Position numbers and translations under genes: made by a program. A stretch of 64,000 nucleotides of DNA from Prochlorococcus marinus str. MIT 9201 (GTDB lineage Bacteria; Cyanobacteriota; Cyanobacteriia; PCC-6307; Cyanobiaceae). How positions within the stretch are numbered: position 1 is the stretch's first letter; the number at the start of each line of letters is the position of its first letter. Below the pieces are notes generated by a model. That model did no database searches. It was not told where the DNA came from and saw only the letters and a list, made by a program, of their open reading frames with translations. Of this stretch, positions 2,580-56,824 are shown piece by piece. The stretch spans positions 1 to 64,000 of the forward strand of contig NZ_JNAL01000012.1 of the NCBI RefSeq assembly GCF_000759955.1. Direction: 5' to 3'.

Positions 2580-4235
2580 TTAATCTGATTTGCATACTCT
2601 AATTACTTCTGAAAGAGTAGTTAAATGATCCTTCACTAACTCTACACCGTATTGAGTTAGCGTAAGCATTGAATTCTCGTTTACAGCTAAATTCTCAATC
2701 TCTTTATCAGTTAAACCTTGGGATATCGCACTTTGAATTTTTCCATCAACAACAAGAAGTTCGTATGTACCAATTCTTTGATGATAACCAGAACCTTGAC
2801 ATTTTTGGCAAAGAGTATTTTCTCTTTTTCTTTGTGCCTTTTCTTCAGGAGATAAAGCATTTGCATACTTAATTGGAGTATTTTTTTTGATGTTAAATTT
2901 TGCAGCTTCACTTTCTGATATTGGTCTTTCAATTGAACATCCAGTGCAAACTCTTCTAAGTAATCTTTGAGCCAATATTCCTCTAACGCTTGCATTTAAT
3001 TTGTATTTTGGGACTTCCATATCTAATAGCCTTGTCAAGGAACTAGATGATGAATTTGCATGAAGAGTTGTAAAAACTAAATGTCCAGTTTCTGCAGCAT
3101 CCATAGAAGATTCTGCTGTTTCAGGATCTCTTGTTTCACCGATAAGAATTACATCAGGATCTTGCCTAAGAAAAGTTCTCAAGATAGTAGCAAATGTCTG
3201 TCCCTTTGCTCTATTAACTTGTACTTGAGTTATGTCTCCACCCATCTCATATTCAACAGGATCTTCAGCAGTAATAATATTTGTCTCTCCATTATCTTTT
3301 TCTCTAAGTGCAGCTGCAAGAGTAGTTGATTTCCCAGAACCTGTTGGACCTGAAACAATTACTATTCCATTTGTTGAATTCATTATTTTCCTGAAGTTTT
3401 TTCTAACATCTTCTATGTGAATTAAGGTATCTAATTTTAGGGTTTCGGTATCACTTTTTAAGATTCGGAGAACCATTTTTTCACCATGTTTACTTGGGAC
3501 TGTGGAGCATCTAAACTCGAGTCTATTTCCCTGAAACTTTCTCAATATTTTCCCATCTTGACTGGCTCTTTTTTCCGCTACGTCCATCTCATTAGTCATA
3601 GTTTTTAAGCATGAAACTAATTGAATTCCAGATTGTCTTGGAATTGTCATGAGTTTTTGCATTACTCCATCATTCCTAACTCGTATTTTGTATTGTTCGC
3701 TATTTGGTTCTATATGAATATCGGAAAAATTACTTTTTACAGAATGAATCAATATTTTCCCTGCTGCTTTTTGAATTTTGCTTTGCATCATTTCATCCTC
3801 TAGATCTTCCTCTTCAATAGTTTGTTCAATTTGTGCATCATCAAATTCAATGCCACCAATAACAGAATCTTCATTATCAGTTGTATCTTTAAAAGCCTCA
3901 ATAACAGCATCTTCATCAAATTGAGATATTTCTATTGAGTCTCCACTAATAAATCTCTCTTCTGATGCTAAATCTAAAATTTCTTGAATCTCTTCTTGAG
4001 ATCTCTCAACAAATTCACATTTAAAACCAGATTGACTTAACCTTTCTTTGATTGGTGAAGCTATAGTGCCTAAATAAGAGTAATTTGCAATAGCTATTTT
4101 TATAACTCCCTCCTTCATGGGCAAGGAGGTTTCCTCGTAAAGAGGAACTACAAAGTTATCCCTGCACCATTGAAGTGAGAAGAATTTATCAACTAATTTT
4201 CTTACGCTTGTTGGCGTGTATCTATTTTCAGCCAT
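2580..4235 (-). CDS. pilB: Type IV pilus extension ATPase PilB (GspE family)
   Basis: A 551-residue hexameric ATPase driving pilus extension. The N-terminal MshEN-like part (1-100) is followed by an acidic linker (about 105-150), the CxxC-bearing ATPase core with Walker A GPTGSGKST at 296-304, Asp-box TAEDPVEYE, Walker B VILIGETRDPETA and His-box TTLHANSS. A tetracysteine Zn site is visible (C430, C433, C476, C479), typical of PilB/GspE and absent from PilT. Its ATG directly follows the stop of the pilin-like gene (TAAATG), suggesting translational coupling. Confidence 0.96.
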   Translation of the reverse strand: MAENRYTPTSVRKLVDKFFSLQWCRDNFVVPLYEETSLPMKEGVIKIAIANYSYLGTIASPIKERLSQSGFKCEFVERSQEEIQEILDLASEERFISGDSIEISQFDEDAVIEAFKDTTDNEDSVIGGIEFDDAQIEQTIEEEDLEDEMMQSKIQKAAGKILIHSVKSNFSDIHIEPNSEQYKIRVRNDGVMQKLMTIPRQSGIQLVSCLKTMTNEMDVAEKRASQDGKILRKFQGNRLEFRCSTVPSKHGEKMVLRILKSDTETLKLDTLIHIEDVRKNFRKIMNSTNGIVIVSGPTGSGKSTTLAAALREKDNGETNIITAEDPVEYEMGGDITQVQVNRAKGQTFATILRTFLRQDPDVILIGETRDPETAESSMDAAETGHLVFTTLHANSSSSSLTRLLDMEVPKYKLNASVRGILAQRLLRRVCTGCSIERPISESEAAKFNIKKNTPIKYANALSPEEKAQRKRENTLCQKCQGSGYHQRIGTYELLVVDGKIQSAISQGLTDKEIENLAVNENSMLTLTQYGVELVKDHLTTLSEVIRVCKSD

Positions 4236-5405
4236 TTAAGGACACTTACACTGTTTGCTGTTCGCGCTGTAACTTGGCCAACCTCTGAATTGAGGTTTAC
4301 AACGTTTATGTCTCCTGAAATAAGGGGGCTTACAGCGGTCCGGTTGTGGTCTTGGTCTAGGCTTAGGTGGTGGAGGGGGCGGCTTACCACAACTTGTAGT
4401 TCTGTAGGCACTGAGTGATGAATATTCAGACCCATTACATAAATAGACGGCTTGACCACAAGGGGCAGGTCCTGGAGATGGACCGTACCTATATAGCCCC
4501 TTCTTTCTTAGTCTTAAAGCATTTGATCTATCATTCATACATTTTTGTTTTTTTATTTGGTTATCAAAAGCAGTCCATTCTGTTTGAGAACTAAATTCAT
4601 AGCCTGAATGATACCAATATTTTATCCCTCCGCATTCAGGATCTTTAGTTTCAGGTTTGCCATTTCTGCTAATGCTCTTACTTCTTCTTTTTGATGTCCT
4701 CCAATCGAGGCATGCCCTTCCATATTTAGCTTTTAGAGCTTGATCAACAGCTTCAAGAGTATTTACTGGAATTCCCTCGAAAGCATATACTTTTCTTGTA
4801 CAACTTTGCTTATCACTGTCCCAACTTACATTCTCACCACTACCGTCGGCAGCAAGCCAATTATTATATTTCCCAATACATTCTGCTTTAGACTTTGCTA
4901 GAGCTGCTAAACGAGCAAATTCTGCTTTTTGAGCCTCTGATAGCCCGCAATTTTTACCTGCCCAGCCTCTACATGAATTTAAGAATCTAGGATTACTTGA
5001 AGGTGTAGCAGTTTTAAGAATCTTGCCTTCACTTGTCATTTGAAAATCAAAGGCATAAAGATCTTTTTCTTTTTCATTCAAAGGCTTGAGTGCTATGTGG
5101 GAACATTTATTTTTATTGGCATCTATCTGATACCCAAGGGTTTGTAATTTTATATCATCTAATTGATCTGGAGTTGATTGCTCTATAAATTTTACTGGAT
5201 CAGTAGATATTCTATATTTCCCCAAACAATCAGCTGCATACCCATTCATTATTGCTTTAGCTTCTTCAACTTTATTTAACTTTAATGAAGCTAATACGTT
5301 CGGGAATGTAAAACTACCTAAAGCAGCTATACCGGCGATAACTATTATGAGCTCAATTAAAGTAAAGCCACTATTGCTATTATTTCTTATGTTGGATATT
5401 TTCAT
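4236..5405 (-). CDS. Large Cys/Pro-rich pilin-like protein with a class III prepilin signal
   Basis: 389 residues. A prepilin peptidase site is clear: a 13-residue leader ending in Gly, then FTLIELIIVIAGIAALGSF with Glu at +5. The rest is much longer than a pilin (usually 140-200 residues), with about 18 cysteines and a proline/arginine tract near the C-terminus (CGKPPPPPPKPRPRPQPDRC) followed by a Cys-Lys-Pro tail. It sits directly ahead of pilB with a TAAATG junction. It could be a minor pilin or tip adhesin, disulfide-bonded outside the cell; this is inference. The 3' part is locally higher in G+C than its surroundings. Confidence 0.85.
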   Translation of the reverse strand: MKISNIRNNSNSGFTLIELIIVIAGIAALGSFTFPNVLASLKLNKVEEAKAIMNGYAADCLGKYRISTDPVKFIEQSTPDQLDDIKLQTLGYQIDANKNKCSHIALKPLNEKEKDLYAFDFQMTSEGKILKTATPSSNPRFLNSCRGWAGKNCGLSEAQKAEFARLAALAKSKAECIGKYNNWLAADGSGENVSWDSDKQSCTRKVYAFEGIPVNTLEAVDQALKAKYGRACLDWRTSKRRSKSISRNGKPETKDPECGGIKYWYHSGYEFSSQTEWTAFDNQIKKQKCMNDRSNALRLRKKGLYRYGPSPGPAPCGQAVYLCNGSEYSSLSAYRTTSCGKPPPPPPKPRPRPQPDRCKPPYFRRHKRCKPQFRGWPSYSANSKQCKCP

Positions 5406-5488
5406 TTTATATCCAATAAAGCCTGGTTCCTAATTATATTATTTATTTTATATTTATACAAGTTAATCTATTTATTTAGATTTGACTT

Positions 5489-6001
5489 TTATAATTCAAG
5501 AATATAATCTTCATTCTCAAAACTTATAATCAATTTTAATTTTTTAGGATCTATTTTTAATACTTTTGCTCCATTAGGTAATAAATTAGTATTTTCTCCC
5601 CCAATAGATTCCTCAGTAATTGTACCTTCTTGACCTAAGTAACTTACAAAAACATATTTACTTTTTTTTGTGTTGAGAAAACCAATTAATTTGAAATTAG
5701 TATTCAAATTATTTACTTCATCTTTTATACCTTCTTCAGAAAAAGGGTCAATTTTGCCTAGTGGTATTGAACTTAAAATTTCAGATTTATTTTGATAATT
5801 TTTCAGTTCATTTTTAATGATTTCTTTTTTTGTTACTAAGGAATCTTTGCTTTCTAAATTTAAAATTTTTTCATTATTTTTTGGTGGAATTTTAAAATTT
5901 GATAAATCTAAATCAAAATTTTCATTTTTACTATTGCAACTTGATATAAGGATTCCTAGGAGTAGGTACGAAATAAAATTTTTGTGAAAAAATTTATACA
6001 T
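5489..6001 (-). CDS. PilP-like pilus-assembly lipoprotein
   Basis: 170 residues with a lipoprotein signal (hydrophobic run, then LISSC with the lipidated Cys at 22), a low-complexity polar linker, and a C-terminal domain containing GKIDPFSEEG, LIGFLNTKKSKYVFV, GTITEESIGG and LLPNGAKVLKID. That pattern (DPF, then a small beta domain ending 'G-V-I') matches PilP, the inner-membrane lipoprotein that links PilN/O to the secretin. Sequence identity to PilP is weak by eye, so the family call is inference supported by the pilus context. Its ATG sits at the foot of the pilA terminator. Confidence 0.65.
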   Translation of the reverse strand: MYKFFHKNFISYLLLGILISSCNSKNENFDLDLSNFKIPPKNNEKILNLESKDSLVTKKEIIKNELKNYQNKSEILSSIPLGKIDPFSEEGIKDEVNNLNTNFKLIGFLNTKKSKYVFVSYLGQEGTITEESIGGENTNLLPNGAKVLKIDPKKLKLIISFENEDYILEL

Positions 6002-6003
6002 TT

Positions 6004-6035
6004 AAAAAAAATCTCAAGATTTTTAATCTTGAGAT
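6004..6035 (-). terminator. Rho-independent terminator/attenuator after pilA
   Basis: A perfect 10-bp stem (ATCTCAAGAT with ATCTTGAGAT, 6011-6035, loop 5 nt) is followed on the minus strand by a run of eight T. It lies between the pilin stop (6061) and the ATG of the PilP-like gene (6001), so it probably limits read-through from pilin into the downstream machinery genes. Confidence 0.85.
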
Positions 6036-6060
6036 GTGCATCAAAAATTTATGAAACCTA

Positions 6061-6567
6061 TTACCAGTTACCGTCTGTAGTTGTAACGCCCGTAACAGGA
6101 TCAGTAACTGGAGTTCCATTACATCCGGCAGCACCAACATCTGAACAGGTTTTGGAAACTAATCCAGTTTGAGGATTCATAACAATTGTAAAATTGGAAT
6201 CTCCACTACCTGCAGCAGCGGTTGCTGTAGCTGCATAACAGGTGTCTCCTGAGGATGCTTCTTGTCCCATTGTATAACCTTGAAAACTACCTGCAGAAAA
6301 AGATTGAGCATCGGCAAAAAGTGTTGAATCGAAATCTGATGCTCTCACAACACATTCTTTCACTCCATTAACTAAACCATTCTTAACGGCAGATGCTCTT
6401 GCTCGAGCTTGTACCCCAACAAAAGCTGGAATAGCTACAGCAGATAGAATTGCTAAAACAGCAATTACTACAACTAATTCAACAAGAGAGAAGCCCTCCT
6501 CTCCTTGTTTGGTGCTAAGAGTTTTTAAAACTCTTTTATTAATTAAAAAACTTTCTAATAAAGTCAT
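6061..6567 (-). CDS. pilA: Type IV major pilin PilA
   Basis: A 168-residue prepilin. From the ATG at 6565-6567 there is a 25-residue leader ending EEG, then the mature N-terminus FSLVELVVVIAVLAILSAVA with Glu at +5, the classic class III pilin helix that prepilin peptidase cuts and methylates. The mature protein is about 143 residues, with a cysteine pair near the C-terminus (CSDVGAAGC). An upstream ATG at 6636 would add a hydrophobic stretch before the charged leader, which is atypical, so I prefer 6567. Single-gene transcription is suggested by the terminator directly downstream. Confidence 0.9.
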   Translation of the reverse strand: MTLLESFLINKRVLKTLSTKQGEEGFSLVELVVVIAVLAILSAVAIPAFVGVQARARASAVKNGLVNGVKECVVRASDFDSTLFADAQSFSAGSFQGYTMGQEASSGDTCYAATATAAAGSGDSNFTIVMNPQTGLVSKTCSDVGAAGCNGTPVTDPVTGVTTTDGNW

Positions 6568-6645
6568 CGTGAACAATAGAAATTTGGATTTGTAAGTTGA
6601 TAGCAGAATTATATACATTATGCTAGAAAAGTACAACTTTTCAGA

Positions 6646-7464
6646 ATGCTAACTATATTTAATTACTTTCAGTTTTTCATTGTTGGAGTGTGCATAGGGA
6701 GTTTTTTAAATGTTATTGTTTATCGTTTTCAAAATAATTTTTCAATTATTAAACCAAGAAGTTTTTGTCCAAAGTGTAAAATAAAATTAACTTGGAGAGA
6801 AAATATACCTTTAATTAGTTATTTAATACAAAGAAGAAAATGTCTGCATTGCAATAAATCAATATCTTTTAGGTATCCTTTAATTGAATTTCTAACAGGT
6901 ATTCTATTTATTATTTTTACTAATAGTTCTCCTTCTTTCTTAATATCAAATTCAAATTTGTTTTTAAATTTATTTTTTAATTGGATATTTTTGTCGCTTC
7001 TATTTTGTATCGCATTAATTGATATTGATAGTTTTTGGATCCCTCAAGGATTGATAAACTTTGGTTTTCTTTCAGGGATTTCTGGTTTAATATTTATCGG
7101 CTTATTTGATAATAAATATATTGATTTAAACCTAATTAGCAAGGGTTTGTGTACTTCACTAATCGCTTTTTTTATCTTTGAGTCTTTCAGATACTTAGCT
7201 AAATATGTTTTTAAAAAAGATGCAATTGGTAGAGGTGACTCTAAATTAGTAGCAATGCTAGCTTTATGGCTAGGTCCTATTGGAACTTTGTTCGCAGTTG
7301 GCATTTCTTATATAATTGCAGCAATTTTCTGCCTAGTAGGATTATCCTTCAATCTAGTTAGGTTCAGGCAAGTTATACCCTTTGCACCTTTTCTGTCTTT
7401 AGGGGGGCTAATTATGTGGTTCCTTGGGAATGGATTTGTTTTTGAGAAAATACTTCGTATTTAG
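6646..7464 (+). CDS. pilD: Prepilin peptidase PilD (leader peptidase / N-methyltransferase)
   Basis: 272 residues, polytopic. The N-terminal domain carries the two CxxC pairs of the full-length enzyme (CPKC, then CLHC), followed by the A24 peptidase core with the two catalytic aspartate motifs IDIDSFWIPQ and GRGDSKLVAML. About seven hydrophobic segments. It cleaves the leader of PilA and the pilin-like protein and methylates the new N-terminal Phe. It is transcribed divergently from pilA; the 78-bp gap must hold both promoters. Confidence 0.95.
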   Translation: MLTIFNYFQFFIVGVCIGSFLNVIVYRFQNNFSIIKPRSFCPKCKIKLTWRENIPLISYLIQRRKCLHCNKSISFRYPLIEFLTGILFIIFTNSSPSFLISNSNLFLNLFFNWIFLSLLFCIALIDIDSFWIPQGLINFGFLSGISGLIFIGLFDNKYIDLNLISKGLCTSLIAFFIFESFRYLAKYVFKKDAIGRGDSKLVAMLALWLGPIGTLFAVGISYIIAAIFCLVGLSFNLVRFRQVIPFAPFLSLGGLIMWFLGNGFVFEKILRI

Positions 7465-7533
7465 GGCAATTTATTTTGAATCTTTCATAAATAATTTAAA
7501 CTAAAAGTGAAATTCCTATTCAATTTTCTATGG

Positions 7534-14525: not shown

Positions 14526-15428
14526 TTGATTTTCTATCATCGATTTGATTTCTTCATAATTTATAAGATATTTATTTTTACAAAATTCACAAACCAACTC
14601 TGCTTTACCATCTTTCTTAAGGATGTCCTCTAACTCTCTCTTATCAAGCATTTTCATCGCATTTAAACTTCTTTGTTTGGAACACTTGCATTTAAAACTC
14701 ACTTCTTGGGAACGAGCTTTTTCAGAGATTGATTTATCGTCAATATCGGGAAATATATTTCTAATTAATGAAAGAAGATTATCTTTTGACTTAAATAGGT
14801 CTTCGCTAAAAGAATTAATTTCTTTACATCTTTCTTCGAGTAGTGAGATTAGTAGTGGGTCAGTATCTTTTTTAGGTAGAACTTGAGCTAATAAGCCACC
14901 ACTACAAATAACACTTTTATTTTGGATTTTTTCCCCAATAAATACAGCAGAGGGAGTTTGCTCTGAATGATATAAATATGAAGCTAAGTCTTCAGCAATA
15001 TTCCCATTTACTAATTCAACAGTGCTTGTAAAGGGTTCTCCAAATCCACTATCTCTAATTACATTTAAATATCCTGTACCTAATGCTTTTGTGAAATCAA
15101 AAGAATATTTATTATTATCTATTTTGACTAGGTCCAATTCTAAATTAGGATTCCCTACATAACCCCTAACTTTCCCGTCTCTGCCTGCATCAACTAGTAA
15201 TCCCTTTAAAGGTCCGTCAGATCTAACTCTTAAAGTGACTCTCCCATGCATTATTTTCATCGAGCTTGCTAAAAGCAGTGAAGCACTAAATGCTCTGCCT
15301 AAGATACAGGTGGTTAAGTAAGAAAGGCTGTGTCTTTTTTTTGCTTCTAAAGAAGATTCTGTTGTTAAGACCGCAACTAATCTTATTCCTCCATTGGCTG
15401 CAGTAGCCCGAACTATCCTATCCTGCAT
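14520..15428 (-). CDS. hslO: Redox-regulated chaperone Hsp33
   Basis: 302 residues. A holdase activated by oxidative unfolding. The C-terminal zinc site is visible as CKC and CEFC, the four cysteines that switch the chaperone. The N-terminal core ([52 protein letters not shown]) is typical. The start overlaps the end of the ABC ATPase gene upstream by 11 bp, so the two are likely co-transcribed. Confidence 0.95.
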
Positions 15429-16065
15429 GATTTTCTTTCATAAAATTTTTGATTTTCCCTTTTTCCAAGAATAATATCCTAGAAGGAATTCCCTCAAATA
15501 AAGCAGGTTCATGAGTAACAATAATAATTGTATTTTTATTTTTTAAATCAAGAATTAAATTCTTCACATCATTTCTCATTGAATAGTCTAATCCAGCAGT
15601 TGGTTCATCAAGTAAAAGAATTGAAGGGTTTCTAAGTAATTGAACTGCTACAGCTAACCGCCTTTGTTGTCCGCCACTTAGCTGTTCTGGTGGTTGAGTC
15701 AGATTAATTTTTTTCAAACCAACTTTATTTAAAACTATTTCTATATTTTTTTCTCTTAAAGATTTATGGCCTATTTTTAATTCTTTACCAATGGTTGTAC
15801 CTATAAAGTATCTTTCAGGAAATTGGAATACTACTCCACAAAACCATCTTCTTTGTCTGGAAGACAAAATTTTATTATTCCAAGTAATTTTCCCCTTTTG
15901 CGGATTTGTTAATCCACTTATTATTTCGAGTAGTGTTGTTTTCCCAGAACCACTATTGCCGCAAATTAAAATGATTTCATTTTCATGAACTTTTAAATTT
16001 AAATTGTCTATTATTTTTCTTTCACCAGTTTGGGGTTGATAAGATATTTCTTTTAAATCAAGCAT
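15418..16065 (-). CDS. ABC transporter ATP-binding protein (short)
   Basis: 215 residues, a single ABC ATPase domain: Walker [10 protein letters not shown], signature [12 protein letters not shown], Walker [13 protein letters not shown] and the switch His in IIVTHE. It resembles the cobalt/energy-coupling-factor group, but no permease or substrate-binding gene is adjacent, so the substrate cannot be given. It overlaps hslO. Confidence 0.85.
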
Positions 16066-16148
16066 TATTAATTAAGTTATAGGTATGAATTTGAATCTAG
16101 TAATAACTTACTTATAATAGCTTTAGATCTAAAAAGATATTAGTCAAT

Positions 16149-16592
16149 ATGAATATTATTTTTAGGGAAGTTGATCCTTTTAATTGTTGGATATGGATCA
16201 GGTTTTCAGAATCACCAACTCAAGACGAAAAAAATTATTTAGATGGTGTTTTTGATAGTTGGTACGTTTTAGGAAGGTTAGGTGGATTTAATTCTGAAAA
16301 TTTGCAAACTCATGAAGAGGGTTCTGATCTAAGTTGGATGTCCTATGATAATGACCAAAAGAATGCATCTCTTCCAGCCTTAATGCATAATTTAGGAATT
16401 ATGGAATATCAAAATCTTTGGGGAAGATGTTGGGTTGATTTTGGAACTTCAGACTCCATTTCAATAGATATATTAATTAATTCTTTGAATGAGATATCAA
16501 ATAATTATGTAAAAATTGAAGAGTTAATTATTGGGGGTGAAAATAATGATTGGTCAGTTGAAGAACATGAAGATTTAGTTTTCAAAGATTAA
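16149..16592 (+). CDS. DUF3531 family protein
   Basis: 147 residues, soluble and acidic. The pattern FREVDPFNCWIWIRF, then VFDSWYVLGRLGGFN and NLGRCWVDFGTSD-like segments (here NLWGRCWVDFGTSD) matches DUF3531, conserved in cyanobacteria and plastids with no known role. It is the first of a three-gene plus-strand run with rsmE (9 bp gap). Confidence 0.8.
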   Translation: MNIIFREVDPFNCWIWIRFSESPTQDEKNYLDGVFDSWYVLGRLGGFNSENLQTHEEGSDLSWMSYDNDQKNASLPALMHNLGIMEYQNLWGRCWVDFGTSDSISIDILINSLNEISNNYVKIEELIIGGENNDWSVEEHEDLVFKD

Positions 16593-16601
16593 GTGTTTTA
16601 G

Positions 16602-17375
16602 ATGGAAGACTTAACAAGATTAATTATTTCCCATGAAAGAATTGAAAATATTAAGAACAATAATTTAGAACTTTCTAAAGAAGAGGCTCATTATTTAAAT
16701 AAAGTAATGAGGATAAAAAATGGTAAAAAAATATTTATAGCTAACGGAGAGGGTTCATTATGGAAAGCTATAAAAGTTAAAAATGATTGCTTAGAAATAA
16801 TTAAATCAAAAAAACCTTACTTATTTCAAGAACAAGAAATTCACTTATTAGGAATAGCTGTTGTTATACCAAAAAGTGGTTTTGAGGATATTTTAAAAAT
16901 GTGTACTGAAATAGGAATTGATTTTATACAGCCATTATTTTCAGAAAGACAGGTAAACAAAAATTTAAATTTTTCTAGAAAACTTTTGAGATGGAATTTA
17001 ATTATCAATGAAGCTGTTGAGCAAAGTGAGAGATTATGGAAACCATCTATTTTAAATGGAATGGATATTATTGAATGGCTAAAAAGTAGAGATAATCCAG
17101 AAAGAGTTTCAATTTCTATAACTAGAGAAGAAACACTATATGACTTAAATCAATGGTTAAGAAAAAAACAAGAATTTGGAAATAAAAAAGGAGGTATTTT
17201 TTGGAATGTAATTGGTCCTGAAGGAGGTTGGTCCGCTAAAGAAATTGATTTTTTTAAAAAAAATAATATTCCCTTTGTTAAGCTTTCCGACACTATCTTG
17301 AGAACTTCAACGGCTAGTATTAACGCATCATCAATTCTAAATCAGTGGAGAATTGATTTAAAATTAAAGAATTAG
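16602..17375 (+). CDS. rsmE: 16S rRNA m3U1498 methyltransferase RsmE
   Basis: 257 residues. A SPOUT-class enzyme that methylates N3 of U1498 in 16S rRNA. An N-terminal PUA-like part (HYLNKVMRIKNGKKIFIANG) is followed by the knot domain with VIGPEGGWSAKEIDFF and the C-terminal ILRTSTASI motif, both diagnostic. Between DUF3531 and DUF92 genes with short gaps. Confidence 0.93.
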   Translation: MEDLTRLIISHERIENIKNNNLELSKEEAHYLNKVMRIKNGKKIFIANGEGSLWKAIKVKNDCLEIIKSKKPYLFQEQEIHLLGIAVVIPKSGFEDILKMCTEIGIDFIQPLFSERQVNKNLNFSRKLLRWNLIINEAVEQSERLWKPSILNGMDIIEWLKSRDNPERVSISITREETLYDLNQWLRKKQEFGNKKGGIFWNVIGPEGGWSAKEIDFFKKNNIPFVKLSDTILRTSTASINASSILNQWRIDLKLKN

Positions 17376-33259: not shown

Positions 33260-33514
33260 TTAAAGGATTGGATAAGCTATCCAACCAAATAAAGAATAGT
33301 TGATTATGACAGCCATGAAGCCAATCATTGCCAGCCTTCCATTTGTTCTTTCCGCAATAAACCAATATGTATTTGGCCATTCAAAAATTTCCCCCATGTT
33401 GGATATTTGATCTTTTGAAAGTGAAGTCTCTTTGGGAGTATTTTCCTTGTCAATGTAGTAATTACTATCTGGGTAATAGCTTTCGCTTCGAATATTGTAT
33501 TCTTTTTTAATCAT
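33260..33514 (-). CDS. hli: High-light-inducible chlorophyll-binding protein, copy 1
   Basis: 84 residues. A polar N-terminus of about 50 residues precedes the single-helix Hli/CAB motif AERTNGRLAMIGFMAV (chlorophyll-ligating Glu and Asn/Arg) and a terminal FGWIAYPIL. Hli proteins bind chlorophyll and carotenoid and protect photosystem II or newly made chlorophyll under stress. First gene of a two-gene cassette repeated at 37.4-37.9 kb. Confidence 0.93.
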   Translation of the reverse strand: MIKKEYNIRSESYYPDSNYYIDKENTPKETSLSKDQISNMGEIFEWPNTYWFIAERTNGRLAMIGFMAVIINYSLFGWIAYPIL

Positions 33515-33715: not shown

Positions 33716-34009
33716 ATGACTTTAGGAGGAGCTAATGTTTGGACTAATTTTTCTTACGGTTATCGTAATGAGTCCCCAAGTGGTTGGTTACTCAGCCCTG
33801 ACCGCAGCAGATTAATTTTATTTACAATTAATAAAAAATCTCCAAGAAGTAGTACCAGAATTTTTACTCATACATATTATGCAAATGATCTTGGTGAGCC
33901 AATGGCAATTAAATCATCAACTCAAATGTATTTGGATAATGCCTGGGACAAATGGCATGACCTTCAATTAGAAGGTTGGACTTTTGAAGAGCTCGAATTA
34001 CCTGAATAA
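33716..34009 (+). CDS. DUF1651 protein, copy 1
   Basis: 97 residues: SPSGWLLSPDRSRLILF, THTYYANDLGEPMAIKSS and WDKWHDLQLEGW mark it as DUF1651, a family confined to marine picocyanobacteria. Soluble. The ATG is only about 17 nt past the predicted transcription start. Paralogue at 36177 shares the motif YANxLGEP and the promoter. Function unknown; control by a LexA-like operator suggests a stress role. Confidence 0.85.
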   Translation: MTLGGANVWTNFSYGYRNESPSGWLLSPDRSRLILFTINKKSPRSSTRIFTHTYYANDLGEPMAIKSSTQMYLDNAWDKWHDLQLEGWTFEELELPE

Positions 34010-34318: not shown

Positions 34319-34432
34319 TTATTTGGTTTTTATTTTTTTCTTAATTCTCAGAAAGCCGTAAGTTCCAAAACCAACCAAAAACATGTCTAGGTAAATATGC
34401 CAAGTAGGAAAAATCTGGTGTATTGATTCCAT
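34319..34432 (-). CDS. Small single-helix protein downstream of the LigA-like gene
   Basis: 37 residues, MESIHQIFPTWHIYLDMFLV then GFGTYGFLRI and a lysine-rich end. Its ATG overlaps the stop of the LigA-like gene by one base (TAATG), typical of coupled translation. Single hydrophobic helix of marginal strength. Unknown function. Confidence 0.55.
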   Translation of the reverse strand: MESIHQIFPTWHIYLDMFLVGFGTYGFLRIKKKIKTK

Positions 34433-35181
34433 TAACTTTTTATTGCTACTTGCCAATAAGGATAATGTAAATTTGATTTTTCTCTAATTAATTGTAATTT
34501 TCTAGAATTTATCTTTACTACTATTCCGTCTATTGGATATTTCCTAAAAAGCTTTCCTTCAAGCCATTGTTTTCTAAATACTTGAACTTCGCTAGTAAAG
34601 TTGCATGAAATATCCTGAGGTATCGTGAAGCCAAGCTTAGAAAGAATCTTTTTGGACTCATATTGGTTAAGTTTTGAATTAAGTATTTGAAATGCGCAGA
34701 AGCTAAGACTTTCAGTAGATCCTTCTTTAGCCCTGAGAAATCCAGAAGCGATTTTCTGGGATATATTTGAACTTTGATTAGTTGCGTATAATTCTCCCCT
34801 AACTTGAAGAACTCCTTGTAAAGGGAGATTATTAGGAACGTCTTGGACTTGAATAAGTTTGCTAGTAACGTCTGCCCCTTTTCTTGTAATCGCCTTCTCC
34901 AATGATCCATCGCTGTATTGCAAAGCAACAGCACAACCATCTATTTTAGGTTCAATTAATAATCTAGTATCTTCTAGTAAGCCTTTCAAGAATTCGTCTA
35001 TCGAATCCCTCTTTAATGTAGGTAAAACTAGTTTATTTTTCTTTTTAAAGTAATCGCAATCAGGATTTATCCTAAATAAATTCCTTTCAAGCTGGTCGAA
35101 CTGCTTATTAGATATTAAAGCATTACCATTTCTATAATTATCGTCATACCATTCAATTCGTTCTTCTAAATAAGTCTTCAT
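34432..35181 (-). CDS. Standalone NAD-dependent-ligase-type nucleotidyltransferase domain (LigA-like)
   Basis: 249 residues against roughly 670 for LigA. Ligase motif I is intact (EPKIDGCA, adenylated Lys), as are a motif III-like VRGELYA, motif IV YPIDGIVVKIN, and motif V, whose Lys is the penultimate residue (WQVAIKS-stop). The OB-fold, Zn finger, HhH and BRCT domains are absent. The N-terminal Ia region is recognisable (YRNGNALISNKQFDQL), but the residues that in E. coli LigA contact NMN (His23, Asp32, Tyr35) appear changed to Arg, Asn and Phe. It could be a stand-alone adenylyltransferase, an accessory repair factor or a relic. Stop/start junctions tie it to the genes on both sides. Confidence 0.8.
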   Translation of the reverse strand: MKTYLEERIEWYDDNYRNGNALISNKQFDQLERNLFRINPDCDYFKKKNKLVLPTLKRDSIDEFLKGLLEDTRLLIEPKIDGCAVALQYSDGSLEKAITRKGADVTSKLIQVQDVPNNLPLQGVLQVRGELYATNQSSNISQKIASGFLRAKEGSTESLSFCAFQILNSKLNQYESKKILSKLGFTIPQDISCNFTSEVQVFRKQWLEGKLFRKYPIDGIVVKINSRKLQLIREKSNLHYPYWQVAIKS

Positions 35182-35388
35182 TTAATACGATGGCTTAAGT
35201 TTTTGGTTAGGTATCCAACTTGGTTTATCAATGATCCATTTTTCTTTATCTTCATAGTGAACAGTCCATAACAGGAACGAAGAAAAATTTTTTAGAGATA
35301 TTCCAACTACATATCTTGTTTTTGGACTTATTGAGATAAAGCAAAGTAACAATATTAATAAAAACATCTTAAACACACCCTTAATCAT
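35182..35388 (-). CDS. Small membrane-anchored hypothetical protein
   Basis: About 68 residues from the ATG at 35386-35388, chosen to avoid overlap; an ATG at 35448 would give 88 residues and overlap the previous gene by 26 bp. One helix (MFLLILLLCFISIS) and a polar domain with WTVHYEDKEKWIIDKPSW. Its TAA abuts the ATG of the LigA-like gene (TAAATG). Unknown family. Confidence 0.55.
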   Translation of the reverse strand: MIKGVFKMFLLILLLCFISISPKTRYVVGISLKNFSSFLLWTVHYEDKEKWIIDKPSWIPNQKLKPSY

Positions 35389-35422
35389 TTGAAAACACAG
35401 CGATATTATTTCAGGATTTTTA

Positions 35423-35677
35423 TTAAATGCAATTTTTATAACCTTCAATTTTCGCTAATTCATTAATGTTCAAACCTGTTTCTTCTAATAAGGTTTCACC
35501 TATATCGTCTTTATTAAATTTAGTTAGTGCTCCTTTAGTGGAATACTTAATGCATTGGTTTTTATATGCTGCTTCTTTGACAACAGGTGATAAATAAAAA
35601 CCAAACAAGATGATAAAAGCCCCATAGGTTACAACTTTTCTATGGTTTTTCCACCATTCATAAAATTTATTAGACAC
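35423..35677 (-). CDS. Small membrane-anchored protein
   Basis: 84 residues: MSNKFYEWWKNHRKVV, a helix (TYGAFIILFGFYLSPVV), and an extracytoplasmic part with two cysteines (NQCIKYS and the terminal GYKNCI). Layout and spacing of the P-V-helix-Cys pattern resemble the protein at 63033. First or second gene of the run leading to the LigA-like gene. Confidence 0.65.
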   Translation of the reverse strand: MSNKFYEWWKNHRKVVTYGAFIILFGFYLSPVVKEAAYKNQCIKYSTKGALTKFNKDDIGETLLEETGLNINELAKIEGYKNCI

Positions 35678-36176: not shown

Positions 36177-36467
36177 ATGACATCAGGAGCCTCTTATGTT
36201 CGGACTAATCTTTATTATGGCAGCTTTATTGACGCCCCAACTGGCTGGTTGTTTAACCAAAAAAGTGGTTTATTAATTTCTTTTGAGAATTATGAGAAAT
36301 TTGTATCGAATAACTTAAAAGTATATACTCACCTTTTCTATGCAAATGAATTAGGTGAACCAGCTCAACTTAAAAATTCAAGACTTCATTCTATTGAGTG
36401 TGCTTGTGAAACATGGAATGAATTAATTTCTGGAGGTTGGCAAATTGTTACCAATAAATTCCAGTAA
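36177..36467 (+). CDS. DUF1651 protein, copy 2
   Basis: 96 residues: APTGWLFNQKSGLLISF, THLFYANELGEPAQLKNS and WNELISGGW. Same family as the gene at 33716, with clearly diverged sequence outside the core motifs. ATG lies 4 bp after the conserved dyad, so the leader is very short. Function unknown. Confidence 0.85.
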   Translation: MTSGASYVRTNLYYGSFIDAPTGWLFNQKSGLLISFENYEKFVSNNLKVYTHLFYANELGEPAQLKNSRLHSIECACETWNELISGGWQIVTNKFQ

Positions 36468-37661: not shown

Positions 37662-37916
37662 CTAAATAAAACCTGGAATTATCCATCCAAAAAAGCCGTA
37701 ATTTATTATTAAAGCAAAAAAACCAATCATAGCTAATCTACCATTTGTTATTTCGGCATTTTTCCAAAATTTACCCATATAGTTTTTAATTTTTTTCGAA
37801 TTTTTTTCTATCAAATAATTTGGTTCTAAAGGTTCCTGCAGTCTTTTGATGGTGTATAAGGAAAATTGTATTGTAATTGCGACTATAACAACTATAAAAC
37901 TTGTAAGAGCATCCAT
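37662..37916 (-). CDS. hli: High-light-inducible chlorophyll-binding protein, copy 2
   Basis: 84 residues from the ATG at 37914-37916; an ATG at 37964 would add 16 residues. The C-terminal Hli motif is AEITNGRLAMIGFFAL followed by NYGFFGWIIPGF, nearly identical to copy 1 in this part. Unlike copy 1, it has an extra N-terminal hydrophobic segment (MDALTSFIVVIVAITIQ), so it may span the membrane twice. Confidence 0.9.
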   Translation of the reverse strand: MDALTSFIVVIVAITIQFSLYTIKRLQEPLEPNYLIEKNSKKIKNYMGKFWKNAEITNGRLAMIGFFALIINYGFFGWIIPGFI

Positions 37917-38056
37917 TTTTAGATTTCGTATGTGATCAATTTGCAGCCAAAGAGTAAATGACATTTGTATGTATTTAACATTTCCTTTTTCTACTTTTAT
38001 GACAAAGGAAAACTTAACTTTAATTATTAATTAATGTAACATGTTTAAAAAAAATA

Positions 38057-52712: not shown

Positions 52713-55187
52713 TTAATCACTATATTTTTTTATAAGTTTTTCTACTCTTTTTTCTATTGGTTCATTACTTAGAGTATTTTTAAGTCTCTCAACTAATAAA
52801 GGGAAAGCAAAAGGAGTTGGAGTTTTAATCTCGTTTATAATCATCTTTAAGTTTTTTAATCTTTCTAGAGATCTCGATATTCTCTTATTTTCTAATTGAT
52901 ATTCTTTTACTTCTTGATGCGATTGCTGTATTAAAAGATGATCTTCTTCGTATTTGGTAAATACATCGTAAAAAAGACTTGAGCTTATCTGCAGTTGAGA
53001 GGAGGTTTTTGTTTTTGTGGGGCTATTTTGATTTACTAGTCCACTTATTTGTGCAATATTTTTAAATCTTCGTTTTGTTAATTCTGAAAAATTAATTGCA
53101 TTTTCAAGATCTTCTTCTAGTTTTTGGTTATCCAAAAAGTAATTAGCTTCTTTTTTTATTATGGAAAAATCATAATCTTCTGAAGTAGTTAAGCTGAATC
53201 CAAAATCATTAGCAGTAATACTAAATGTGGATTGTTTTAATTTTGTAAATCTTAAAGCCCATAAAAATCCAATTCCTTCATTTACAAATTTGCCATCAAG
53301 GGTAAAAACAAAAAGATTTGAGAAATCCCTAGTTTTATAAATTTCTATAAGGAATTCATCTTTCTTTGGAATATTGGAAAAAACCTTTTGTTTCTTTAAT
53401 ATTGGGAGTAATGAATTTAGCTCAGGATTCAAGTAATCATATTTTTCTAATTTATTGCATATATCTATTTCTTTTCTCAAGCTTTCACAAAGAAGATCAG
53501 AAATTGCCATTTGACCACCAACCCAGGAAGGGATTAGGGAACTTTTTTTTGATGATTTTTTAACGTATAAGATCATGTCTCTCATTCTTATAAATTGGAG
53601 CATTTTCCCAGCAAAGTAAAAGGTATCGCCTGGATTTAATTTTGAGGCAAAATTCTCTTCCAAATTCCCTAGTGATTTACCCTTCATATATTTAACAATT
53701 ACAAATTTGTCGCTTGTTATAGTGCCAATATTAAACTTATGCATTCTTATTAATGATTTGTCTTTTACAAAATATTTAAAGTTTTCACTTTTATTTTGTG
53801 ATTCTTCTTTGACAATCTTTTTATATTTTGGATATGCCTTGAGACATTTCCCACCATATTCTAAAAAGTCTATACACCAATTCCATTCTTGATCTTTTAA
53901 GTTTCTATAACTCCAACAATTTTTTATCCTTTCTTTTTCAATATCTGGATCAAAGCCATTTCCGCAGGCTAGGCTTACAAGATGTTGAAGGAGCACATCA
54001 TATGATAATTCAGGAAGTTTAATTTTTTCAGATATACCGCTTTTTATTATTCTTCTCATTGCACTAATCTCTAATAACTCTAAAGAATTAGTAGGCATAA
54101 AAATTATTTTTGATTTTCCTCCTGGTCTATGAGCACTTCTTCCTGCTCTTTGAATAAGCCTAGCTAAATTTTTTGCACTACCAATTTGAACGATTTGATC
54201 TACAGGTTGAAAGTCAACGCCTAGGTCTAATGAACTGGTACAGACTACCCATTTTATTAATCCGTCTTTAACCCCTTCTTCAACTCTTCTTCTATCTTCC
54301 TTATCAAGGGAACCATGATGAATGGCTATTCTCTCTTCCATCTCAGGCACAAAAAATCTGAGACATTGATACCATCTCTCAGATTGATTTCTTGTATTGG
54401 TAAATAATAAGGTACTTTTATTTTTATCCAAGATTTTTAAAAGTGAAGAATGACTTCTAATTCCTAAATGCCCACTCCATGGAAAAGTTGTTTTCTCCTC
54501 TGGTAAAACACTTATAATTTCAATTTCTTTTTGAATATTTGTATTTATTATTTTGGGTTTATTACCCCTCATTCCTACTATCGCTCTTGCCGCTTCTTCA
54601 ATATTTCCTATAGTGGCCGACATTGCCCAAATTTGTAAATTTTTTATATTCCCTCTTATCCAGCTTAAAGATAATTCGCATTGGTTACCTCTTTTACTGC
54701 CCATTAATTCATGCCATTCGTCAATAATTATTGATGATAATTCTCTAAAAATATTATTAGATTCTTTATTAGAAAGTAAAAGACTAAGAGACTCTGGAGT
54801 GGTAATAAGAATATTAGGTGGTTTCTTTAATTGCTTTTTCTTTTCATATGGAGAAGTATCTCCATTCCTGATTTCAACAGTAATATTTTTATTAAAATGT
54901 AAAGCTGCTAGTTGTATTGAATTCTTTAAATCCCTACTTAAGGCTTTTAAAGGAGTTATTAATAAAATATTTACACTAATATTATTTTTGGGATTTTCTA
55001 TCTTTGATAAAGGACCCATTATTGCTGCATAAGTTTTGCCACATCCAGTTGGGACTTGAATTATTCCATTTTCCCCATTCAAAAATGCTTCCCATGATTC
55101 AATCTGAAATGGTAATGGGTCCCAGCCATTCTTGTAAAAAAAATCTTCAATTTTAGAAATTGAATTAGTTTGCGTAATATTTTTCAT
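52713..55187 (-). CDS. Ligase-associated DExH-box helicase (Lhr-like)
   Basis: 824 residues. Superfamily 2 helicase: motif I VPTGCGKTYAA, motif II DEWHE, motif III SATIG, motif VI QRAGRSAHRPGGKSK, with the Lhr-type winged-helix and C-terminal region after about residue 400. It belongs to the family found with ATP-dependent ligase, phosphoesterase and MBL exonuclease (TIGR04121). Overlaps the ligase stop as TAATG. Confidence 0.93.
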   Translation of the reverse strand: MKNITQTNSISKIEDFFYKNGWDPLPFQIESWEAFLNGENGIIQVPTGCGKTYAAIMGPLSKIENPKNNISVNILLITPLKALSRDLKNSIQLAALHFNKNITVEIRNGDTSPYEKKKQLKKPPNILITTPESLSLLLSNKESNNIFRELSSIIIDEWHELMGSKRGNQCELSLSWIRGNIKNLQIWAMSATIGNIEEAARAIVGMRGNKPKIINTNIQKEIEIISVLPEEKTTFPWSGHLGIRSHSSLLKILDKNKSTLLFTNTRNQSERWYQCLRFFVPEMEERIAIHHGSLDKEDRRRVEEGVKDGLIKWVVCTSSLDLGVDFQPVDQIVQIGSAKNLARLIQRAGRSAHRPGGKSKIIFMPTNSLELLEISAMRRIIKSGISEKIKLPELSYDVLLQHLVSLACGNGFDPDIEKERIKNCWSYRNLKDQEWNWCIDFLEYGGKCLKAYPKYKKIVKEESQNKSENFKYFVKDKSLIRMHKFNIGTITSDKFVIVKYMKGKSLGNLEENFASKLNPGDTFYFAGKMLQFIRMRDMILYVKKSSKKSSLIPSWVGGQMAISDLLCESLRKEIDICNKLEKYDYLNPELNSLLPILKKQKVFSNIPKKDEFLIEIYKTRDFSNLFVFTLDGKFVNEGIGFLWALRFTKLKQSTFSITANDFGFSLTTSEDYDFSIIKKEANYFLDNQKLEEDLENAINFSELTKRRFKNIAQISGLVNQNSPTKTKTSSQLQISSSLFYDVFTKYEEDHLLIQQSHQEVKEYQLENKRISRSLERLKNLKMIINEIKTPTPFAFPLLVERLKNTLSNEPIEKRVEKLIKKYSD

Positions 55188-56824
55188 TATATTTTTTTCA
55201 TTAATTCATAAGCATTTTCTAGACTATTAGCATCGGTAATTTTTTTATCTTTTCTCCATTTTGTTATTCTTGGAAATCTTACTGCTATGCCTGATTTATG
55301 TCGTTTTGAAATTTGTATCTTTTCGAAAGATATTTCGAATACCATTTCTGGTTTTAATGATCGCACAGGACCAAATTTTTCTATTGTATTTTTCCTTATC
55401 CATTTATCAAGCTCTTTAATTTCATTATTCGTTAGACCAGAATAAGCACTAGCAAATTTAATTAATTCTTTGTCTTTCCATAATGCAAAACTATAGTCTG
55501 TATAAAGACCAGCTCTTTTCCCGCTTCCTCCCTTAGCATAAATCAAAACCGCATCTAGTTGCATAGGGTCAACTTTATATTTCCACCAAATACCTTTTTT
55601 TCTTCCAGAAGTATATATGGATCTCTTGTTCTTAATTACTAATCCTTCAGTATTATTTTCTCGAGATTTTTCTTTATAACTTTGAGCATCTGACCAATCT
55701 TTAGGATAGATTAAATCACATATTTTGAAAACATCAGAGATATTATTTTTAGGTTGATTTTGCCATGTTGAAAAATACTTTTCTAACTCAATTCTTCTAT
55801 TTTCTAATTTAATTTCTCTTATATCCCTTCCTTTAATCTCTAAAAGGTCATAAGCAATGAAAATTATTGGATATTTTATTTGTATTGATCTGGTGGGAGA
55901 TTTTCTATTTATTCTTTTTTGAAGAAAAGAAAAATTCAATGCAATTTGCTCTTGAAAATCCCAAACTAATAATTCCCCATCAAGAACAAAATCATCTTTT
56001 ATATTTGACATTTTATCCACTAATTCTGGGAATGATTCATTTACTAATTCTTGACCTCTTGTCCATAACGAAATATTCCCTGATCTTTTAACTAATTGAA
56101 TTCTGATACCATCGTATTTCCATTCAAACTGGAAATCATTTATGGAATTTTTAATAATTCTATCTTCAAAGGTATTTGCTAAAAGAAATGGGAATGGTTT
56201 GGAATTTAATTCTTCAAGTTTTATCTTCTTATTAATTAAAAATTCATATGAATCAACTGAAGGTTTAAAATCTCCCATTAATCTATGAGAAATTATCTCT
56301 TCATCAACATTAATTAGTTTTGCAATTGATTTTGTTATTAATCCAATAGAGACTCCTACTCTAAAGGTGCCTGTAAGAATTTTGTTGAAAATTAGATGGT
56401 CATCTTCTGGCAATGTTTCCCAAATTTTTTTAATTTCTAAATTCTTCTCATATTCATTAAGTTTTGATAAATCAGGTAATGTTTTACTTAATAATTTATT
56501 GAGAGTTATATTTGATATTTTTTTATTTCTAGAATAATTTTTGTTTTTGAGTAATAAAGTAATAACCTCAGCTGAATCACCAACTTTTAAATAACATGTA
56601 TCAATTAACCATTGAGGGTATTCATATACTTGAGAAAAAAGATTTTTTAAATATCTTCCACTAACAAATCTCTTGTTACTTTTCCCAGTTAATAAATATA
56701 TTGCCCATGAGTTATCTATAGGTTTATTTGATAAAAAATAATTTTTTAAAACTTCAATTTTATTATTTGTACTATTAATTGAATCTAGATCTGTAAATAA
56801 TTTTGAAAAATTTTTTAAGCTCAT
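55187..56824 (-). CDS. ATP-dependent DNA ligase (ligase-associated damage-response type)
   Basis: 545 residues. An N-terminal DNA-binding domain of about 200 residues, adenylation motif I EWKYDGIRIQ (nucleophilic Lys), motif III ELLVWDF, motif IV EGLVIKNK, motif V WWKYKVDP, and a C-terminal OB fold with ISKRHKSGIAVRFPRI. It resembles LigB-type bacterial ligases used in repair in addition to the replicative LigA. Overlaps the exonuclease gene by 4 bp. Confidence 0.94.
   Translation of the reverse strand: MSLKNFSKLFTDLDSINSTNNKIEVLKNYFLSNKPIDNSWAIYLLTGKSNKRFVSGRYLKNLFSQVYEYPQWLIDTCYLKVGDSAEVITLLLKNKNYSRNKKISNITLNKLLSKTLPDLSKLNEYEKNLEIKKIWETLPEDDHLIFNKILTGTFRVGVSIGLITKSIAKLINVDEEIISHRLMGDFKPSVDSYEFLINKKIKLEELNSKPFPFLLANTFEDRIIKNSINDFQFEWKYDGIRIQLVKRSGNISLWTRGQELVNESFPELVDKMSNIKDDFVLDGELLVWDFQEQIALNFSFLQKRINRKSPTRSIQIKYPIIFIAYDLLEIKGRDIREIKLENRRIELEKYFSTWQNQPKNNISDVFKICDLIYPKDWSDAQSYKEKSRENNTEGLVIKNKRSIYTSGRKKGIWWKYKVDPMQLDAVLIYAKGGSGKRAGLYTDYSFALWKDKELIKFASAYSGLTNNEIKELDKWIRKNTIEKFGPVRSLKPEMVFEISFEKIQISKRHKSGIAVRFPRITKWRKDKKITDANSLENAYELMKKI

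Follow-up and report, generated by a model that had tools for sequence, protein, structure and literature searches.

Within the 64,000-nucleotide stretch of Prochlorococcus marinus str. MIT 9201 analysed here (the window), an open reading frame at 34432..35181 on the minus strand encodes what looks like half of an NAD+-dependent DNA ligase (LigA), raising the question of whether it is the remains of a lost ligase or a gene with a function of its own. The frame is intact, begins with ATG, and encodes a solo NAD+-ligase-type adenylyltransferase of 249 amino acids, composed of a modified domain Ia (about residues 1–66) and an NTase domain and, unlike LigA, without OB, Zn, HhH, or BRCT domains. 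The domain Ia-like helices, placed by alignment and structure model at residues 1–66 (34984..35181, minus strand; the boundary is approximate), carry the pattern Tyr16-Arg17-x-Gly19 ... Asn25-x2-Phe28-Asp29. When aligned with LigA, the protein shows a shortened domain Ia, motifs I (PKIDG), III (VRGEL), IV (DGIVVK), and V (WQVAIK), and then a stop, with the loop around Arg100 four residues shorter than in LigA. Lys79 of PKIDG, the predicted AMP attachment site, is encoded at 34945..34947 and the motif V lysine, Lys248, at 34438..34440, both on the minus strand; Ser249 is the sole residue between Lys248 and the stop.

The Pfam profile DNA_ligase_aden (PF01653) matches residues 72–248 (9.4e-22, 78.2 bits; cut-off 27), and the NCBIfam LigA profile TIGR00575 gives 79.7 bits and does not reach its equivalog cut-off of 444.45. 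On a full-ligase profile, the protein spans positions 11–304. These scores are far from chance, and equally far from those of a full LigA. An AlphaFold2 model built from a 31-row alignment (pLDDT 85.2, pTM 0.74) was found by Foldseek to match LigA adenylation-domain structures with E-values down to 9e-17, including the NAD-bound 7k72 and 5tt5, at about 20–25% identity, a TM-score of about 0.7, and an rmsd of 3–18 Å, often large; the window protein is about 60–75 residues shorter than most of these structures. Heterodimeric ligase structures of phage PR1 (9hu3/9i5i) were also among the matches. Thus, the description in the earlier note of a standalone LigA-type adenylation domain ending just past motif V is upheld by the reading frame, the PF01653 match, and the position of the stop, and the structure prediction that it had proposed gives the same picture. 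Synechococcus phage S-CAM8 has an uncharacterised protein of 193 residues (BFVD entry G8EY44) with a similar fold, at 18% identity and a TM-score of 0.72 by target length.

Relatives of the gene were sought on GTDB genome contigs, with an alignment of 14 family rows as the query; 433 stretches matched, and the best 80 of 433 were kept, all with 85–89% identity. The named strains among them are MIT 9401, MIT 9107, and MIT 9314, which are taken here to be HLII; the titles of most others name Prochlorococcus single-cell or metagenome assemblies, and those of three of the 80 name Synechococcaceae. In all of these best 80 of 433, the protein is exactly 249 amino acids long and the same neighbourhood surrounds the gene, as far as each contig extends, so that the comparison of gene and neighbours suggested earlier finds the gene kept in one place. 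The median dN/dS was measured to be 0.16 (maximum 0.36) over the 1923 of 3240 pairs with dS > 0.1, pairs with dS of 0.1 or less being excluded; it is not near 1, the value proposed earlier as a mark of absent selection. Overall, 34432..35181 is a real gene under purifying selection, and the window copy is a fixed chromosomal gene in the window's Prochlorococcus clade.

Two small open reading frames lie upstream on the same minus strand, each with one hydrophobic stretch: an 88-aa frame (35182..35448), whose stop abuts the NTase start codon in the window, and an 84-aa frame (35423..35677), present at the loci of 79 of the 80 relatives. Downstream, a 45-aa frame (34319..34456, minus strand) overlaps the 3′ end of the NTase gene by 25 bases, and an open frame starts there in 77 of the 80 relatives. 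The earlier note had placed the gene in a run of tiny membrane proteins, which is apt for the two upstream frames (maximum 19-residue hydropathy of 2.37 and 1.95) but less so for the downstream one (1.01). The small hydrophobic neighbours are conserved as general synteny. Translational coupling of the NTase gene with the upstream frame was considered and dropped, since abutment or a 1-base overlap with the NTase start was detected in just 8 of the 80 relatives. No conserved DNA-metabolism neighbour of the window copy was recognised in the relatives' neighbourhoods or by Pfam scan, and no integrase was seen beside it, integrase adjacency belonging to other copies of the family. On the plus strand, small related proteins of one cluster (33716–34009 and 36177–36467) flank the NTase gene group, the first matching DUF1651, and related Hli-like small proteins, also of one cluster, lie nearby at 33260–33514 and 37662–37964; the former scores 19.2 bits against Chloroa_b-bind, under the cut-off of 22.3.

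More detailed comparison of the NMN site in domain Ia was made by ungapped spacing counted from the D32 position, with residue numbers (Y22, H23, D32, Y35, and D36) that are presumed to be those of E. coli LigA. The NMN contacts had been noted as seemingly replaced, and this is so for two positions of the window protein itself, with Asn25 at the D32 position and Phe28 at the Y35 position (Phe in 53 of the 57 family members that are ungapped there). However, the D36 position is retained (53/57), 52 of 57 ungapped members have Asp at the D32 position, and the H23 position, Tyr16 in the window protein, is likewise Tyr in 9 of 11 LigA rows (10 cyanobacterial, 1 phage). The solo proteins depart from LigA at the Y22 position, which is Tyr in 11/11 LigA rows versus 0/54 solo proteins with a residue there, and in Arg17 and Gly19, which are invariant in the solo proteins (54/54) and are novelties relative to LigA. 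Together with the shorter Arg100 loop, these changes could reflect the use of another adenylate donor. Four of the six members (among 60) that lack the Ia Tyr have also lost two catalytic residues, Asp of motif I and Glu of motif III, versus none of the 54 with the Tyr (Fisher 3e-5, a statistic that ignores the relatedness of members). This joint loss suggests that catalysis depends on the NAD+-binding domain Ia, although the altered Y22 position, Arg17 and Gly19, and the Asn25 of the window protein weigh against it.

The tree and the conservation counts were based on selected rows—80 in total, 64 of them solo and 60 distinct, with the solo viral locus L175 left out. In the 80-row tree, which is unrooted and in which the program flagged long branches, including one joining the T5-like rows to the rest, a 100/98 branch splits the 64 solo rows from LigA, from T5-like subunit A, and from three further viral ligases. 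Within the solo family, rows from cyanobacteria and from marine viruses are intermingled; the gene has therefore passed between viral and picocyanobacterial genomes, in one direction or the other. The solo domains are thus a separate family, common to picocyanobacteria, marine viral contigs, and integrase-bearing regions. A separate clade, purifying selection, and a locus fixed in 80/80 relatives all agree with the earlier view that the gene is not a truncation in progress.

Across the 60 distinct solo proteins, the motif I Lys and Gly are each present in 60/60 and the motif I Asp in 56/60, followed by the motif III Glu (56/60), motif IV Lys (52/60), and motif V Lys (53/60). All six checked catalytic residues are retained in 45 members, at least one being missing in the other 15, and the protein ends 0–11 residues past the motif V column in 60/60. 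A full-length copy scoring at least 447 bits was found in 21/21 near-complete genus genomes searched, and 18 of these 21 contain a second, "type 2" copy, assigned by score, in which Glu replaces the motif V Lys. The window's genome has such a type 2 copy on contig C7 (L002 1441–2190), a comparable copy being located at L218 5001–5750. Because of this replacement and of the 15/60 members lacking at least one checked catalytic residue, part of the solo family may be inactive. Decayed, stop-rich fragments of the family were observed in several genus genomes, and a weak match to a decayed solo copy with 8 stops occurs in the window's genome at C6:6437–6688 (E 2.2e-5).

With respect to mobile elements, 27 of the 28 solo viral loci were examined (L148–L174), and in all 27 one protein cluster adjoins the NTase gene (25) or lies one frame off (2); the loci are not independent, some contigs being near-identical and three pairs having identical NTase rows. 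Of this neighbour cluster, three members were compared with PHROGs and Pfam: each matches phrog_1924 ("minor tail protein"), and Pfam gave no match. Clusters that include the VRR-NUC nuclease and the VapE-like helicase of L157 occur in 22/27 and 21/27 of these viral loci, respectively. A co-conserved partner in cells was sought with a phrog_1924-type profile, which had no match in the window or in the loci outside L148–L178 to which it was applied. Copies in other cyanobacterial genomes adjoin integrases. At L227 (genome G130; 14737–16715), the NTase start overlaps the end of an integrase by 4 bases, and at L233 (genome G334; 3733–5231), a truncated 76-aa NTase copy overlaps an integrase by 1 base. 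PHROGs assigned phrog_1 integrase to L227:14737–15951, L233, and L229; a second L227 integrase candidate (5028–6410), assigned by eye, had no PHROGs match. No tRNA was found in L224, L227, L229, L231, or L233, where an integrase lies near the NTase, and the label of tycheposon, a tRNA-associated element, is accordingly not claimed. Membership in a defence system was rejected, the sole match in a PADLOC scan of six proteins being a weak one of the window protein to PDC-M01A (E 0.0057).

The solo gene is found in cells that have no LigA. The earlier note had named the presence of the missing LigA domains in frame nearby as grounds for refutation; none is there, and a search of the whole genome with the OB domain profile PF03120 gave no match. 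Across the genus, 4 of 101 genomes have the LigA OB domain, but it is absent from all 29 whose completeness is 90% or more and whose contamination does not exceed 5%, whereas in the phylum it was detected in 277 of the 291 genomes with a completeness of 95% or more, no genus member being among these matches. The 14 misses consist of 13 members of the window's genus and G628. The latter is the only genome outside the genus, among the 291 Cyanobacteriota, without an LigA OB match; it is in 170 contigs, and its miss may be a gap. ATP-dependent ligases (PF01068) are present in 96/101 genus genomes and in 29/29 of the high-quality ones. Among the four LigA-bearing genus genomes, G372, G375, and G389 (67–77% complete) have no PF01068 match and G381 has two, so the mutual exclusion of LigA and ATP ligase is not strict.

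The window's genome encodes two PF01068 ligases. One, of 545 amino acids and with the Pfam domains DNA_ligase_A_N, A_M, and A_C, is in the window (55187..56824, minus strand; computed from L033 1114–2751). The other, of 437 amino acids on contig C17, matches PDB 6rau/6ras/6rar nearly end to end and is therefore Pmar-Lig (also PDB 6rce), for which PMC6698739 describes a likeness to phage ligases in the N-terminal part and to bacterial Lig E in the core. A protein search found Pmar-Lig in 6 of 151 family genomes, each from a member of the window's genus (1/59 genera), the weak second matches in those genomes being the other ATP ligase. The Pmar-Lig locus (C17:50500–64000, L214; ATP ligase at 6201–7514) was compared with L215, L216, and L247–L260, that is, across 10 LigA-less genomes and 7 LigA-bearing ones (four of the same genus and three from two other genera), with three loci read in detail. 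The flanking genes are shared by these loci, a 139/140-aa gene on one side and a VTT-like gene, then valS, on the other, and they enclose the ATP ligase in 10/10 LigA-less genomes and ligA in 7/7 LigA-bearing ones. In the gap beside Pmar-Lig in the window's genome, no convincing ligA residue was found, matches being of 10–20 bases at most. Very probably, then, LigA was replaced in place by Pmar-Lig in most of the genus. A phage-like source of Pmar-Lig is plausible, its phage relatives, mostly of Bacillus phages, sharing about 31–33% identity over 97–99% (best listed of 1168 matching records). Pmar-Lig would be the putative replicative nick sealer of these cells. It is a complete, ATP-dependent enzyme of another family and a distant relative of the solo protein, and it occupies the ligA locus of the same cells. 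If LigA has been displaced by this phage-like enzyme, the solo protein is neither an LigA remnant nor, alone, likely to be the replicative ligase.

The reading preferred here, judged evenly balanced between right and wrong, is that the solo protein would be an active NAD+-using adenylyltransferase that loads AMP and needs a partner or another acceptor, rather than a stand-alone ligase. By analogy with the LigA family, domain Ia would bind NAD+, and Lys79 would attack it, with release of NMN and formation of a covalent enzyme-AMP, equivalent to step 1 of LigA. Without an OB domain, the protein alone would not seal nicks. The suggestions in the earlier note of a free adenylyltransferase or of a factor that acts with ligases are thus plausible in part. 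More speculatively, the AMP might be passed to an acceptor, or DNA ends might be worked on in trans with other proteins, and a DNA-processing role, probably inherited from a mobile element, might be envisaged.

One alternative, regarded as unlikely, is that the protein is an NAD+ sensor or shield, which binds NAD+, perhaps forms AMP-lysine, and reports or protects NAD+ levels without acting on DNA. Such a role was proposed, in a passage of PMC9503650, for solo Nlig-Ia proteins in 81 phages, which are likewise free-standing pieces of NAD+ ligase. The viral kinship of the solo family and the two small hydrophobic proteins, not DNA enzymes, upstream of the window copy are in keeping with this idea. 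However, the phage proteins, as described in that passage, consist of domain Ia only, whereas the window protein also has a catalytic NTase with an invariant motif I Lys, which a pure sensor would not need; the weak PADLOC result likewise does not favour a sensor.

Still less likely is an adenylating subunit of a split ligase, acting in trans with a separate OB/DNA-binding subunit as in T5-like heterodimeric NAD+ ligases (phrog_3359 + phrog_3498), in which the adenylation module and the C-terminal half are likewise separate gene products. The genes of subunits A and B stand in tandem in T5-like phages, and the PR1 phage heterodimer is among the fold matches of the window protein. Yet T5-like subunit A, at 323 aa, exceeds the window protein in length by about 70 residues and spans positions 9–381 of the profile on which the window protein covers 11–304; from the LigA domain order, the extra stretch past the NTase is the OB domain, which the window's genome lacks. 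The solo proteins also branch apart from T5-like subunit A, subject to the long-branch warning. The subunit-B family, phrog_3498, had no match in four genus genomes (G000, the window's genome, G152, G095, and G264) or in nine virus records, some of them fragments, but was present in the T5-like record and matched in 11 of 14 control genomes. Profile searches thus turned up neither a B subunit nor an OB protein, and a split ligase with such a detectable partner encoded in the genome was rejected.

Action on RNA or pre-adenylated ends, in the manner of truncated T4 RNA ligase 2, or transfer of AMP to a protein or small molecule, is considered quite improbable. Truncated T4 RNA ligase 2 is about 249 amino acids long. 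Isolated NTase domains can perform single steps in other ligases, which fits such a role, as does the invariance of the altered pocket residues Arg17 and Gly19. On the other hand, no RNA-repair gene was found among the part of the neighbours scanned with Pfam and PHROGs. Finally, a decaying remnant of a lost LigA is scarcely credible and was rejected: LigA is missing from the same genomes and decayed family fragments do exist, but the solo rows are strongly separated from LigA in the tree, other genera carry both solo copies and a full LigA, length and dN/dS indicate selection, and the ligA locus lies elsewhere, occupied by the ATP ligase.

In the literature, NAD+-dependent ligases are said to occur in "all bacteria" and to be essential (PMC5052709), and the bacterial NAD ligase is called universal (PMC9503650). 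The NAD-ligase viral family VFam_517 is given, in an excerpt of PMC11357015, as occurring only in some LL strains, which agrees with a loss of LigA in HL. A full LigA from a Prochlorococcus marinus, NP_876232.1, is included in an alignment of PMC3397958, which means that LigA is present in other Prochlorococcus. A section of PMC6102989 lists two short, LLI-specific "DNA ligase" genes near hli11 in NATL2A, which, judged by gene length, could be solo copies. Other partial sources report a "DNA ligase" missing from some HLII groups (PMC5804319, PMC9040837), "several DNA ligases" in MED4 (PMC2921402), and the ATP-dependent ligase of Synechococcus WH8102 counted as an early Prochlorococcus loss (PMC3940434). 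According to a passage of PMC2663038, MED4 "ligA" transcripts peak in S phase, which stands against a plain "no ligA" unless another ligase bears the name. Among the matches listed, no open-access paper was found on high-light Prochlorococcus without LigA or on the solo family.

The absence of LigA can be hidden by annotation, because solo genes score as NAD-ligase adenylation domains. A free-living and very abundant clade has high-quality genomes without LigA, with a replacement at the very same locus, against the "all bacteria" description, and this raises the question of the role of half a ligase in cells without LigA. The overall picture, held tentatively and somewhat more apt to be wrong than right, is that high-light Prochlorococcus gave up LigA for a phage-like ATP ligase and kept a selected solo NAD+ adenylyltransferase of phage or mobile-element descent, whose AMP transfer would serve something other than autonomous nick sealing, for instance the activation of mobile-DNA ends or an NAD+-responsive covalent switch. 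If true, this would be a new class of enzyme made of half a ligase.
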